Source: an uncultured Bacteroidia bacterium (lineage in GTDB: Bacteria; Bacteroidota; Bacteroidia; Bacteroidales; Prolixibacteraceae). Taken from it: DNA of 46,166 nucleotides. The notes beneath the pieces are model-generated. The model did not search any database. It worked only from the letters and a program-made list of their open reading frames with translations, and had not been told where the DNA came from. The DNA lies in the NCBI GenBank assembly GCA_903923905.1, contig CAIXZH010000079.1, positions 1-46,166 of the forward strand, read 5' to 3'. The position numbers and the translations under genes were made by a program. Of the stretch, positions 35,377 to 45,247 are shown in pieces (position 1 is the first letter of the stretch; each line of letters starts with the position of its first letter).

Positions 35377-35423
35377 AGTGATCGGGTGAGTTCTGGTGTC
35401 CGTGAATTACTCACCCGGTCACT
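35377..35423. repeat. REP-like palindrome R1
   Basis: AGTGATCGGGTGAGT and ACTCACCCGGTCACT form a 15-bp stem with one G-T pair around a 17-nt loop containing GTGTCC. The same structure recurs at 44744-44790 and, more loosely, at 37322-37366. Confidence 0.85.
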
Positions 35424-35460
35424 CCTGCCATAAATTTATCTTTTAAAAGGTTAATTCATC

Positions 35461-35505
35461 AGTGACCGGGTGACTTTCAATTCCTGAACAGGTCACCCGT
35501 TCACT
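35461..35505. repeat. REP-like palindrome R2
   Basis: AGTGACCGGGTGAC at 35461-35474 faces GTCACCCGTTCACT at 35492-35505. It follows R1 after about 37 bp, and this R1-linker-R2 order returns at 37322-37450 and 44744-44874, suggesting a composite unit. Confidence 0.85.
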
Positions 35506-35583
35506 AAATTTTTATCAGCTCCTGAACACCGTCACCCGTTCACTGAAATTTCTTCAGATCCTGAACCCAGTCACCCGTTCACT
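35506..35583. repeat. 39-bp tandem half-REP units running into the CRISPR array
   Basis: The right arm GTCACCCGTTCACT ends at 35505, 35544 and 35583, an exact 39-bp period. The two extra units carry only the right arm, with linkers containing TCCTGAAC or TCAGATCCTGAAC. The final arm abuts the truncated first CRISPR repeat directly. Confidence 0.8.
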
Positions 35584-36847
35584 TCAAATTGTATCTTTGA
35601 CCTATTGATAATCACCAGCTCTATTTTATGGCCTCGCTTAAACTTAGTTGTGATTTGCTTTCAAATTGTATCTTTGACCTATTGATAATCACCGCGGATA
35701 ACAAAGCAAATGATCCGCCCTGCGTTGTGATTTGCTTTCAAATTGTATCTTTGACCTATTGATAATCACCATTAATGATTTCGCTCCGGATCCTTTTCTT
35801 GTTGTGATTTGCTTTCAAATTGTATCTTTGACCTATTGATAATCACCCCGATGATAATTGAGATGAAGGTCAAACGCGTTGTGATTTGCTTTCAAATTGT
35901 ATCTTTGACCTATTGATAATCACCAAAAGAGCAATTAAGAAACGTTTAAAGGATGTTGTGATTTGCTTTCAAATTGTATCTTTGACCTATTGATAATCAC
36001 CAAAGAGCAGGAAGGCCAACATCTTCCGCCGGTTGTGATTTGCTTTCAAATTGTATCTTTGACCTATTGATAATCACCGATGAGCCAAAAATCAAACACT
36101 TAAACGACGTTGTGATTTGCTTTCAAATTGTATCTTTGACCTATTGATAATCACCCACTACCATAATGGAACCCCACTTCCTCCCGTTGTGATTTGCTTT
36201 CAAATTGTATCTTTGACCTATTGATAATCACCTAAACAATTAATAATCAATTGCCATGCCACGTTGTGATTTGCTTTCAAATTGTATCTTTGACCTATTG
36301 ATAATCACCGGGGATATAAAGTAAAATCTACGCTGTACCGTTGTGATTTGCTTTCAAATTGTATCTTTGACCTATTGATAATCACCTCTGGGATGAATCG
36401 CACTTATGCGCTTGAAGTTGTGATTTGCTTTCAAATTGTATCTTTGACCTATTGATAATCACCATATCGTGACGCAGGTAAAGTTCAGCAAGAGTTGTGA
36501 TTTGCTTTCAAATTGTATCTTTGACCTATTGATAATCACCCAAGACGGCATAATCTCAGACACCTTAATTGTTGTGATTTGCTTTCAAATTGTATCTTTG
36601 ACCTATTGATAATCACCCCGACCTTTTCAGAGCCGACCTTTGCAATGTTGTGATTTGCTTTCAAATTGTATCTTTGACCTATTGATAATCACCATATGAG
36701 TTTAATGAATTGAGTGAGACAGCGTTGTGATTTGCTTTCAAATTGTATCTTTGACCTATTGATAATCACCCTGGGAGTAAACTGCTACACAGTATCTTTC
36801 GTTGTGATTTGCTTTCAAATTGTATCTTTGACCTATTGATAATCACC
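35583..36847 (+). CRISPR. Type II-C CRISPR array, 16 full repeats plus one truncated
   Basis: Sixteen 47-bp repeats begin at 35647 and recur every 77 bp to 36801-36847. The repeat starts GTTGTGATTTGCTTTCAAAT and ends CCTATTGATAATCACC, and the copies look identical by eye. Spacers are 30 bp, except 29 bp at 36618-36646. A seventeenth repeat at 35583-35616 lacks the first 13 bp, where a REP-like arm takes its place. The anti-repeat of the tracrRNA pairs with the plus-strand repeat, so crRNAs should read on the plus strand, opposite to the cas genes, as known for other II-C loci. Each repeat contains TATCTTTG, a Bacteroidota -7 box. The end beside cas2 is intact and is a candidate insertion end; this is inference. 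Confidence 0.98.
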
Positions 36848-36923
36848 ATACCCCCATTCAATATGCTGTATGTTTGATTGTTAAGGTCTGAATCAGAATT
36901 AAAAATCGAGGGGTTATCAGCAT

Positions 36924-36953
36924 AAAAAATCCGGTTTAAAGACCGGATTTTTT
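36924..36953. terminator. Bidirectional terminator between CRISPR array and cas2
   Basis: AAAAAATCCGGT and ACCGGATTTTTT form a perfect 12-bp stem with loop TTAAAG, flanked by A and T runs. It suits termination of the array transcript on the plus strand and the cas2 transcript on the minus strand. Confidence 0.85.
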
Positions 36954-36977
36954 ATTTCAGTACCGAAAGGAGTTGGT

Positions 36978-37310
36978 CTAAAACAGTTCCAGTTGTTGTA
37001 CCTGTCCCTTCTTTTCAGCTGGTTTTTTCCCGTAAAACAATTCCATATCCCCAAATTGTTTGTCGGTGATGCACAAAATTCCGATGTGCCCAAGTGGAGG
37101 AAGTTCGAGTTTTACCCGTTTAATATGGATGTCGGCGTTCTCTTTGCTCGGACAATGACGCAGGTAGATACTGAACTGGAACATGGTAAAACCATCTTTC
37201 AATAATTGCTTTCTGAAAATTGCATAGATTTTCCGCTCTTTTTTGGTCTCAGTCGGAAGATCAAAGAGTACCATCACCCACATAATCCGATATTCACTTA
37301 GTCGTTCCAT
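36978..37310 (-). CDS. cas2: Cas2
   Basis: A 110-residue Cas2 of the type II form. [32 protein letters not shown] has the conserved Asp after the first beta strand. [41 protein letters not shown] is the second ferredoxin-like half. It works with Cas1 in the spacer-integration complex. It is 159 bp from cas1 rather than overlapping it, and two REP-like palindromes fill the gap. The array ends 130 bp beyond its stop. Confidence 0.95.
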
Positions 37311-37321
37311 CTTTTTGCCGT

Positions 37322-44386: not shown

Positions 44387-44391
44387 ATATT

Positions 44392-44421
44392 TTTGTTTGT
44401 CATAAATAAATATTACTTTAG
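44392..44421 (+). promoter_or_regulatory. Predicted tracrRNA promoter
   Basis: TTTG at 44392-44395 and TACTTTAG at 44414-44421 lie 18 bp apart, close to the Bacteroidota TTTG/TAnnTTTG pattern with one mismatch. The expected start, near 44427, falls at the beginning of the anti-repeat. Confidence 0.45.
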
Positions 44422-44423
44422 CG

Positions 44424-44512
44424 GTACAATTTGAAGCAAATCACAATAAGGATTATTCCGTTGTGAAAACATTTAAGCCACCCTCGTCTTACAATACGGG
44501 GGTATTTTTTTG
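44424..44512 (+). ncRNA. tracrRNA
   Basis: Positions 44425-44446 are complementary to the first 23 nt of the CRISPR repeat except for one missing base. This anti-repeat starts TACAATTTGAAG and ends AAATCACAA. After it, AAGGATTATTCC at 44448-44459 can form the small nexus hairpin. ACCCTCGT (44480-44487) and ACGGGGGT (44496-44503) form an 8-bp stem with one G-T pair, followed by ATTTTTTT, a good intrinsic terminator. Location next to cas9 and transcription away from it are normal for II-C loci. The RNA guides repeat processing and loading of Cas9. Confidence 0.88.
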
Positions 44513-44554
44513 GTGAGAATTGGCATGCCTATCCAAAGCAAAAGCATGTGGTTT

Positions 44555-44570
44555 CCTGTTGCACAACAGG
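44555..44570. repeat. Short perfect palindrome beyond the tracrRNA
   Basis: CCTGTTG at 44555-44561 and CAACAGG at 44564-44570 form a 7-bp inverted repeat around CA. GCATG and GCATAAC words lie on either side. It may be a protein-binding site or a second hairpin; no function can be assigned. Confidence 0.4.
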
Positions 44571-44623
44571 ATGTTATGCAATGCGAATAATCCTTTTTAA
44601 GAATAGAATTTTTGATGGTGAAG

Positions 44624-44874
44624 CTATTTTAGGTAAGGTTTAAGAACAAATTCAATCTTTAAAATTAGGTTCTTTAAATTTACATAAAATATTTCGGAAG
44701 AAGTAATTAAACGACTATTAATAATTATTCTAAATGGATTTTTAGTGATCGGGTGAGTGTCGGTGTCCGTTAAATACTCACCCGGTCACTCCTGCCACCA
44801 AAATTTACCTGTTAAAAGTTTAATTCTGCAGTGACCGGGTAACTTTCAGCTTCTGAACCCGTCACCCGTTCACT
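44624..44874 (+). repeat. Right direct repeat flanking the CRISPR-Cas locus
   Basis: This is the second copy of the 35257-35505 segment, in the same orientation. The 134 bp from 44624 to 44757 differ at two positions only. It then holds palindrome R8 (44744-44790) and the first unit of the 93-bp REP array. The sequence outside the copies differs at once (left GAACTATTTTAGG, right GAAGCTATTTTAGG share only a few bases), so the boundary is sharp. Confidence 0.9.
44744..44790. repeat. REP-like palindrome R8
   Basis: AGTGATCGGGTGAGT and ACTCACCCGGTCACT form the same 47-bp structure as R1, with loop GTCGGTGTCCGTTAAAT in place of TCTGGTGTCCGTGAATT. It belongs to the right direct repeat. Confidence 0.85.
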
Positions 44875-45247
44875 TTAAGTTCTGTCTTTAACCATTTATC
44901 TGCTGCCCGTGATATTTTCTGTAGTGACCGGGTGACTTTCAGCTTCTGTCCCCGTCACCCGTTCACTTTAAGTTCTGTCTTTAACCTTTTACCAGCTGCC
45001 CGTGATATTTTCTGCAGTGACCGGGTAACTTTCAGCTTCTGTCCCCGTCACCCGTTCACTTTAAGTTCTGTCTTTAACCTTTTATCTGCTGCCCGTGATA
45101 TTTTCAGCAGTGACCGGATGACTTTCAGCTTCTGTCCCTGTCACCCGTTCACTTTAAGTTCTGTCTTTAACCTATTACCAGCTGCCCGTGATATTTTCTG
45201 TAGTGAGCGGGTGACTTTCAATTCCTGAACATTGTCACCCGATCACT
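44830..45247. repeat. Tandem array of 93-bp REP-like units
   Basis: Four 93-bp units begin at 44830, 44923, 45016 and 45109, and a partial fifth covers 45202-45247. Each has AGTGACCGGGTGAC (or one-base variants), TTTCAGCTTCTG, GTCACCCGTTCACT, then a linker with AAGTTCTGTCTTTAACC and CTGCCCGTGATATTTTC. GTAG stands at the foot of the units at 44923 and 45202. Because 93 is divisible by three, an open frame with a 31-residue period runs through it on the plus strand; I regard that frame as an artefact. The array ends 15 bp before the stop of the dus gene. Confidence 0.9.

Follow-up and report, generated by a model that had tools for sequence, protein, structure and literature searches.

Why should a transposase-like gene and a cluster of DNA hairpins be gathered at a CRISPR-Cas locus? 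The question is raised by positions 35377-45247 of a 46,166-nt window from an uncultured member of the Prolixibacteraceae (GCA_903923905.1). The window is the whole stretch of DNA that was analysed and makes up all of contig C79 (46 kb); the assembly comprises 119 contigs and totals 5.41 Mb. Positions 35377-45247 hold an array of clustered regularly interspaced short palindromic repeats (CRISPR), cas2, cas1, a gene for a repetitive extragenic palindrome (REP)-associated tyrosine transposase (RAYT), a DUF6261 gene, cas9 in two frames, and a trans-activating CRISPR RNA (tracrRNA) region. The locus is of type II-C: the N-terminal part of cas9 (TIGR01865), cas1 (TIGR03639), and cas2 (TIGR01573) scored above cut-off, and the locus has neither csn2 nor cas4; two other genes match RAYT and DUF6261 models. 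A sequence-only reading had proposed, among other possibilities, that the REP/RAYT pair uses the locus as a niche or moves with it. The answer that we consider probable on balance is that a REPtron, a RAYT with its cognate REPs, repeatedly colonises a tolerated seat between cas9 and cas1-cas2 and is sometimes integrated into the operon.

Occupancy of the cas9-cas1 junction

The window Cas1 was used as a query against genomes of the order (295), the family (140), and the phylum (296), and the surroundings of most matches were fetched. The order sample yielded 111 cas1 places, of which 100 were counted; the window and G040 were moved to the family set, and nine weaker places were excluded, including one in G262 (L252) with a RAYT beyond cas1 on the opposite strand. 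The family set comprised 47 places: 40 were fetched and counted together with the window, and six were not fetched. The phylum outside the order provided 45 places; 40 were fetched and the five weakest were left out. RAYTs were detected using a profile grown from the loci themselves, which very divergent RAYTs may escape.

As determined computationally, 56 of 141 loci had a RAYT in the cas9-cas1 interval, corresponding to 26/100 in the order sample and 30/41 in the family set with the window. Occupancy in the window's genus was 4/8. The RAYT ran in the direction of cas1 in 56/56 loci, and none of the 141 loci had a RAYT between cas1 and cas2. Two more loci carried a RAYT just 5′ of cas1 on a contig without cas9, and three carried one elsewhere. 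A RAYT was present outside cas9 in L119 and L153, and L163 had a second RAYT. Outside the order, 2/40 loci had a RAYT, in the same seat and direction; this count leaves out L379, whose RAYT lies past cas2 on the opposite strand, and L374, whose match was weak (31 bits). If a few RAYTs per genome were placed at random, well under one would be expected in the seat across the sample. Most RAYTs lie away from cas loci: among the best 80 loci from named organisms in a RAYT-profile search, seven held cas genes, six of them type II-C, and several overlapped the loci fetched by Cas1.

Loci lacking a RAYT were common, as 69 of the 100 order loci had cas9 and no RAYT. In RAYT-less loci, the cas9-cas1 gap was shorter than 100 nt in 48/78 and longer than 400 nt in 13/78. 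Several of these 13 long gaps held other open frames that, judged by eye, resembled ATPases or toxin-antitoxin proteins. Thus, the junction takes cargo generally, and RAYTs are the usual cargo, being present in 56 of the 69 loci with a gap above 400 nt.

Two side observations concern the placement of RAYTs. In Marinilabilia salmonicolor MSL42, a RAYT in two pieces lay at a cas locus. Separately, a type I-C locus (L277:55-6594) carried a REP-bearing RAYT between cas7 and cas4-cas1-cas2, also a border of interference and adaptation genes. No RAYT was found in the examined 3-4 kb stretches of 14 further type I-C loci, and the extension to type I-C is therefore kept as a single case.

Hairpins in the window and its genome

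The sequence-only reading had counted at least 13 palindromes in the stretch and placed them at the array end, in gaps between genes, and beyond the tracrRNA. Indeed, 13 hairpins were located and folded, every one starting AGTGA, with RNA fold energies of −14.5 to −29.8 kcal/mol. A doublet (35377-35505; hairpins 35377-35423 and 35461-35505) stands at the array end, and lone arms beside the array were found by arm-pattern search at 35531-35543 and 35570-35582. A second doublet (37322-37450; hairpins 37322-37365 and 37405-37450) fills the cas1-cas2 gap. Single hairpins occupy the RAYT-cas1 gap (38398-38443), where the hairpin overlaps the RAYT stop codon, and the RAYT-DUF6261 gap (39084-39129). 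Six more lie at 44744-45247 (44744-44790, 44830-44874, 44923-44967, 45016-45060, 45109-45153, and 45202-45247), the last five in tandem at a spacing of approximately 93 bp, followed by a dus gene. The tandem at 44824-45247 repeats a REP plus spacer with a period of approximately 93 bp and stops just short of dus. The sequence-only reading had overlooked that one of the 13, at 38802-38834, stands not in a gap but within the RAYT reading frame, where it is accompanied by an extra arm (38802-38848 in all).

The concentration was evaluated by arm searches. Allowing two mismatches, 32 arms matched in the window versus 2.37 expected from shuffles; three of the 32 fell outside 35377-45247, each a single arm with two mismatches. 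The 5.41-Mb genome has 28 exact arms, 21 of which fell within the 9.87-kb stretch; when at most one mismatch was allowed, the stretch held 28 of 61. A reversed control pattern gave 11 matches over the whole genome. At one mismatch or fewer, arm density in the stretch was approximately 460 times that of the rest of the genome. Paired arms also occur beyond the window, on contigs C1, C9, C18, C50, C58, and C59. The claim that the REPs are confined to the locus therefore stands as a strong concentration and fails as strict confinement.

A very different hairpin, CCTTCAAGGTT, came from another genus, where it occurs at CRISPR loci. It was counted in nine genomes of that genus, of which six were single contigs and three comprised 4 or 5; 32 of 65 copies lay within 10 kb of cas1, versus 0.22 expected, the pattern having been built from CRISPR-locus hairpins and thus being biased toward them. 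Most of the nine genomes showed the concentration, the exceptions being G046 (0/2) and G411 (1/4). A tenth genome from a further genus, G272, had no CCTTCAAGGTT copies. Equal density around unrelated genes, which the sequence-only reading had named as the result that would undo its proposal, was thus not found in the window's genome or in this other genus. On the genome-wide hairpin and arm counts, a reading of the hairpins as background repeats was rejected.

As a side observation, a window-family hairpin stands just past a dus gene in L391 (G013:C232), a member of the window's genus in which no cas1 was found.

Hairpins in related loci

Hairpins were compared per kb over intervals that run from cas9 to just past cas2 and include coding sequence, using a scan that skips arms below 35% G+C. 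Loci with a RAYT held 138 hairpins in 150.6 kb (0.92 per kb), versus 27 in 128.4 kb (0.21 per kb) in loci without. A hairpin lay inside the gene in 42 of 56 RAYTs, mostly at +183 to +232 nt, versus 5 of 134 cas1 genes. Four RAYT-bearing loci (L115, L127, L130, and L132) had hairpins within cas1 itself.

Hairpin sequences diverged strongly between loci, and the RAYT-internal ones tended to match those in their own gaps. Across 33 loci, the mean internal-outside similarity was 20.9 within a locus versus 8.4 between loci, and none of 10,000 permutations was as high. The locus's own outside hairpins were the best match in 13 of the 33; related loci share families. Based on the seat counts, these cognate hairpins, and their local concentration, the proposal that the REP/RAYT pair uses the locus as a niche is supported, and it extends to many species.

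The RAYT and its relatives

The window RAYT (38439-39068, minus strand) is a 209-residue TnpA_REP identified by motifs, profiles, and predicted structure. Its HUH motif is N63-H-F-H66, and its Tyr motif, as defined in PMC6006769, is Y160-I-H-F-N164-P. In 26 aligned sequences, H64, H66, and N164 were invariant and Y160 was present in at least 90%. The profile matches were below cut-off for both NF047646, the REP-associated tyrosine transposase model (65.1 bits, E 6e-18; cut-off 80), and Y1_Tnp of Pfam (17.4 bits; cut-off 23). Among the 26 relatives, NF047646 matched all at E ≤ 0.001 and Y1_Tnp matched 17 at E ≤ 0.01. The predicted structure had a predicted local distance difference test score of 86, and its best PDB match was 4ER8 (probability 1.00, E 1.2e-6), the E. 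coli TnpA_REP bound to a REP hairpin, at 16% identity. The profile score is low, yet fold and motifs agree with TnpA_REP. The in-frame hairpin encodes a loop of residues ~74-89 between the HUH strand and the next helix, which is among the less certain loops of the model. In the window, hairpins of a single family lie both within the RAYT gene and to either side of it, and most relatives are similar in this respect.

In-frame REP insertion in RAYT genes has been described for subclass 2.4 by Quentin et al. 2018 (PMC6006769). The window RAYT resembles that subclass in its HUH motif (NH[IFV]H), its occurrence in Bacteroidetes, the REPs flanking the gene, and the in-frame REP, which in the subclass generally lies between the HUH and Tyr motifs. 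It differs in having YIHFNP rather than YIxNNP, GSLFRE in place of Trp-Gln (WQ) at the matching position, hairpins that start AGTGA and lack a GT[AG]G foot, and a seat in CRISPR loci; the main text of PMC6006769 does not contain the word CRISPR. Subclass 2.6, in the same source, shares the Bacteroidetes host, atypical hairpins, and a YIH.NP-type motif. However, its motifs are NH[LIV]H and YIH[QN]NP rather than NHFH and YIHFNP, and its insert lies between αC and β4, whereas the window insert follows the HUH strand and is REP-coded.

More than one origin

A quick tree was built from 149 RAYT hits, of which 138 had at least 140 residues and 109 remained after duplicates were removed. The unlinked RAYTs were chosen from the best hits, so proportions in the tree are not frequencies; 40 of the 109 had no cas gene in the examined stretch. 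The CRISPR-linked RAYTs formed two deep groups, divided by a long branch with strong support, and unlinked RAYTs were interspersed among them. The label changed between linked and unlinked 25 times, at least five of these changes being forced by strong branches. A single clade of linked RAYTs was rejected by the approximately unbiased (AU) test (p 3e-69; 101 rows, eight more loci having been dropped as unclear or long-branched). A single old insertion was rejected on these grounds.

Close relatives had different RAYTs at the same seat. L162 and L163 shared 95% identity in Cas1 and 51% in RAYT. L183 shared 89-91% in Cas1 and 36-37% in RAYT with its congeners L171, L174, L177, and L179. RAYTs therefore seem to have been swapped in place among close relatives. 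Over all 56 loci, RAYT and Cas1 distances correlated with r 0.48, compared with 0.81 for Cas2 and Cas1. In group A, the Mantel r was 0.14 (247 of 2000 permutations as high; not significant), and RAYTs differed or were missing among loci with similar Cas1. In group B, r was 0.59, indicating partial co-divergence. The proposal that the pair moves with the locus accordingly found no support in group A and held in part in group B.

Proposed mechanism and points against it

As read from sequence, the window locus would be a REPtron in which a RAYT gene is accompanied by REP hairpins cognate to it. In type II-C loci, the same seat appears to have been taken repeatedly by RAYTs from at least two deep groups. 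That seat is where the interference gene, cas9, adjoins the adaptation genes, cas1-cas2, and every RAYT seated there in the examined loci lies on the cas1 strand. The RAYT would cut and rejoin the hairpins as single-stranded DNA and seed copies locally, and such seeding would fill nearby gaps with REPs. The junction may tolerate insertion because the two modules need no fixed proportion, and the cas locus may provide the RAYT with both transcription and spread. The RAYT of one lineage lies against, or overlaps, the stop of cas9 and the start of cas1, and is therefore probably expressed like any other gene of the operon.

Several observations weigh against this account. Codirectionality and avoidance of the cas1-cas2 gap are equally expected under selection for a function in the operon, so they do not establish a pure passenger. 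Since 69 of 100 order loci do without it, the RAYT is dispensable. No internal hairpin was detected in 14/56 RAYTs, and in 8/33 loci (L090, L092, L100, L112, L126, L127, L132, and L172) the internal hairpin was unlike those outside, with an own similarity below 10. To these are added the two genomes with few CCTTCAAGGTT copies near cas1 and the bias of that pattern. The trees were quick and contain many weak branches, and label changes do not separate gain from loss. By eye, the cas9-cas1 gap of L173 holds an apparent RAYT remnant of ~10 first and ~40 last codons. The dN/dS values given below are rough. Finally, cas9 in two frames means that the window copy may not interfere.

Selection, operon coupling, and a possible part in adaptation

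The median ratio of nonsynonymous to synonymous substitution (dN/dS), rough because dS was close to saturation, was 0.18 for RAYT and 0.06 for cas1 in four g18 loci and one g3 locus, and 0.10 and 0.03, respectively, in five g11 loci and one g5 locus. Thus, the RAYTs are under purifying selection. The RAYT stop codon lay at or past the cas1 ATG in 7/56 loci and within 10 nt of it in 8/56; the RAYT ATG lay at most 20 nt from the cas9 stop in 10/56. Nor did the loci appear to be decaying. After exclusion of 19 loci that lay at a contig edge or did not have both cas9 parts, cas9 was in a single frame in 42 of 44 RAYT loci, the exceptions being L201 and the window, versus 71 of 71 without RAYT. Median array length was 18 repeats with RAYT (n = 26) and 18.5 without (n = 46; p 0.45). 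The RAYT as a mark of dead CRISPR loci was therefore not supported.

A further reading is recruitment. IscB is regarded as the ancestor of Cas9. TnpA of IS200/IS605, which accompanies TnpB or IscB, belongs to the same Y1 HUH superfamily and supplied the next best folds; unlike in those elements, the HUH enzyme here stands beside a CRISPR-Cas9 locus with cas1-cas2. On several independent occasions, a Y1 HUH transposase may have become an accessory of Cas9 CRISPR systems at the interference-adaptation border, where its action on single-stranded DNA or on hairpins of the locus would feed, limit, or time the acquisition of spacers and re-create a TnpA-IscB-like partnership. We hold this to be unlikely.

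In a rival account, the RAYT would belong to the adaptation module as an HUH single-strand nuclease produced together with Cas1-Cas2. It would serve spacer acquisition by trimming or supplying single-stranded DNA or by processing hairpins close to the array. The recurrence from more than one origin on the same strand, in the same seat directly 5′ of the adaptation genes, fits such a part, as do the seven overlaps with the cas1 start, the purifying selection, and the type I-C locus L277, whose RAYT is directly 5′ of cas4-cas1-cas2. Other findings count against it. RAYTs are missing from 69/100 order loci and from the examined stretches of the 14 other type I-C loci, and they were swapped for ones 36-51% identical with little change in Cas1. 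Array length did not differ with their presence, and 40/109 tree RAYTs had no cas gene in the examined stretch. We consider this role unlikely.

A possible role at the RNA level

Alternatively, the hairpins on either side of cas1, toward cas9 and toward cas2, could cut or stabilise the shared transcript such that Cas9 exceeds Cas1-Cas2, with the RAYT maintaining the hairpins. Many loci do have strong stems 5′ of cas1 and in the cas1-cas2 gap, those of the window reaching the energies given above, and 54/78 RAYT-less loci lacked such a hairpin in the cas9-to-cas2 interval. On the other hand, the g18 lineage couples RAYT to both cas9 and cas1 with few hairpins detected by a scan that ignores AT-rich stems, and REPs also stand outside the operon (44744-45247). 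This explanation seems to us improbable, to about the same degree as a part in adaptation.

Possible mobility of the whole locus

A 256-bp direct repeat of 91% identity (35253-35505 and 44619-44874) flanks the CRISPR-Cas genes. Each copy begins with an end sequence, identified by sequence comparison on the plus strand: the left one, of 124 bp, lies 5′ of the REP doublet (35253-35376), and the right one (44619-44743) has 95% identity to the left end over a 172-bp query. A composite element in which the RAYT mobilises the entire locus by means of REP arrays at both ends would account for these near-identical ends, as well as for the RAYTs outside cas9 in L119 and L153 and the second one in L163. 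In 18 genomes of the genus, the first 172 bp of the repeat had no further full-length copy. No empty site was found in that sample, however; the left neighbour gene occurred in 2/18 genomes, the dus neighbours differed, and RAYT and Cas1 distances were uncoupled in group A. A locus-wide transposon was rejected on the basis of these neighbourhoods, and we regard the composite element as very unlikely.

Chance with common descent, one old insertion inherited with the cas genes among background repeats, draws on a degree of vertical signal within group B (Mantel r 0.59) but merits hardly any credence given the rejected clade, the unlike RAYTs that close relatives carry in this seat, and the genome-wide concentration of hairpins at the locus.

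Other features of the window locus

The CRISPR array (35584-36847, plus strand) comprises 16 full 47-nt repeats, 16 spacers, and a 5′-truncated first repeat. This outermost repeat (35570-35617) lacks its first 14 nt, and a REP arm occupies exactly their place. When the spacers were compared with the fetched loci, the matches listed were just the array's own copies. On the minus strand, cas2 (36978-37310; PF09827, with TIGR01573 above cut-off) is followed by type II cas1 (37470-38384; TIGR03639, 315.6 bits, cut-off 120).

The second extra gene of the cas9-cas1 interval encodes a DUF6261 protein (39133-39897, minus strand; PF19775, 134.5 bits). A DUF6261 gene was present in this interval in 7/141 loci, six of the seven with RAYT; L165 had it without RAYT, and in L073 a DUF6261 gene lay before cas9. 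A second repeat family, of TTCGGGTATTCCCGAAACC type, lies between DUF6261 and cas9 (39920-40120), and related stems were seen in L162 and L163.

The window cas9 (40095-44386, minus strand) consists of an N part (41585-44386) and a C part (40095-41588), the latter alone scoring under the TIGR01865 cut-off. The frames overlap by ATGA at 41585-41588, inside RuvC-III, with RuvC_III profile positions 1-56 in one frame and 59-178 in the other. The split may be a frameshift, an assembly error, or natural. The tracrRNA region (44424-44515, plus strand), read by eye, has an anti-repeat at ~44424-44450 that matches the 47-nt repeats and a terminator-like stem. Rfam gave no match at gathering scores in the window.

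Relation to described systems and significance

The REPs of E. coli are scattered over its genome. Its TnpA_REP with bound REP is the nearest solved fold to the window RAYT; here, REPs concentrate at cas loci instead. The type II-C locus of Flavobacterium psychrophilum CN46 likewise contains transposase genes (PMC10309648), but these belong to IS982 and IS256 insertions, not RAYTs; they were reported for a single isolate and lie ahead of cas9 and within the array. The authors of PMC3116915 suggested in passing that CRISPRs might stem from REPIN-like elements. The sequence-only reading knew of no described CRISPR-REPtron association, and our search agrees: in the open-access literature, no paper among the matches listed described RAYTs in CRISPR loci, and none combined 'RAYT' and 'cas9'. 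The RAYT-CRISPR association would thus be new, and REPs inside RAYT genes were already known.

By general background and PMC6006769 and PMC8266576, RAYTs are domesticated transposases of unclear benefit and REPs are repeats spread over genomes. The REP/RAYT pair described here keeps, across many species, to a single defined position within an immune operon, where the enzyme turns over and the seat stays. It adds a recurrent companion gene to type II-C loci. Moreover, among loci of similar Cas1 background some carry a RAYT, some lack one, and some carry a swapped one; they form a natural series, through which the role of RAYTs and the contents of the junction between interference and adaptation genes become testable.

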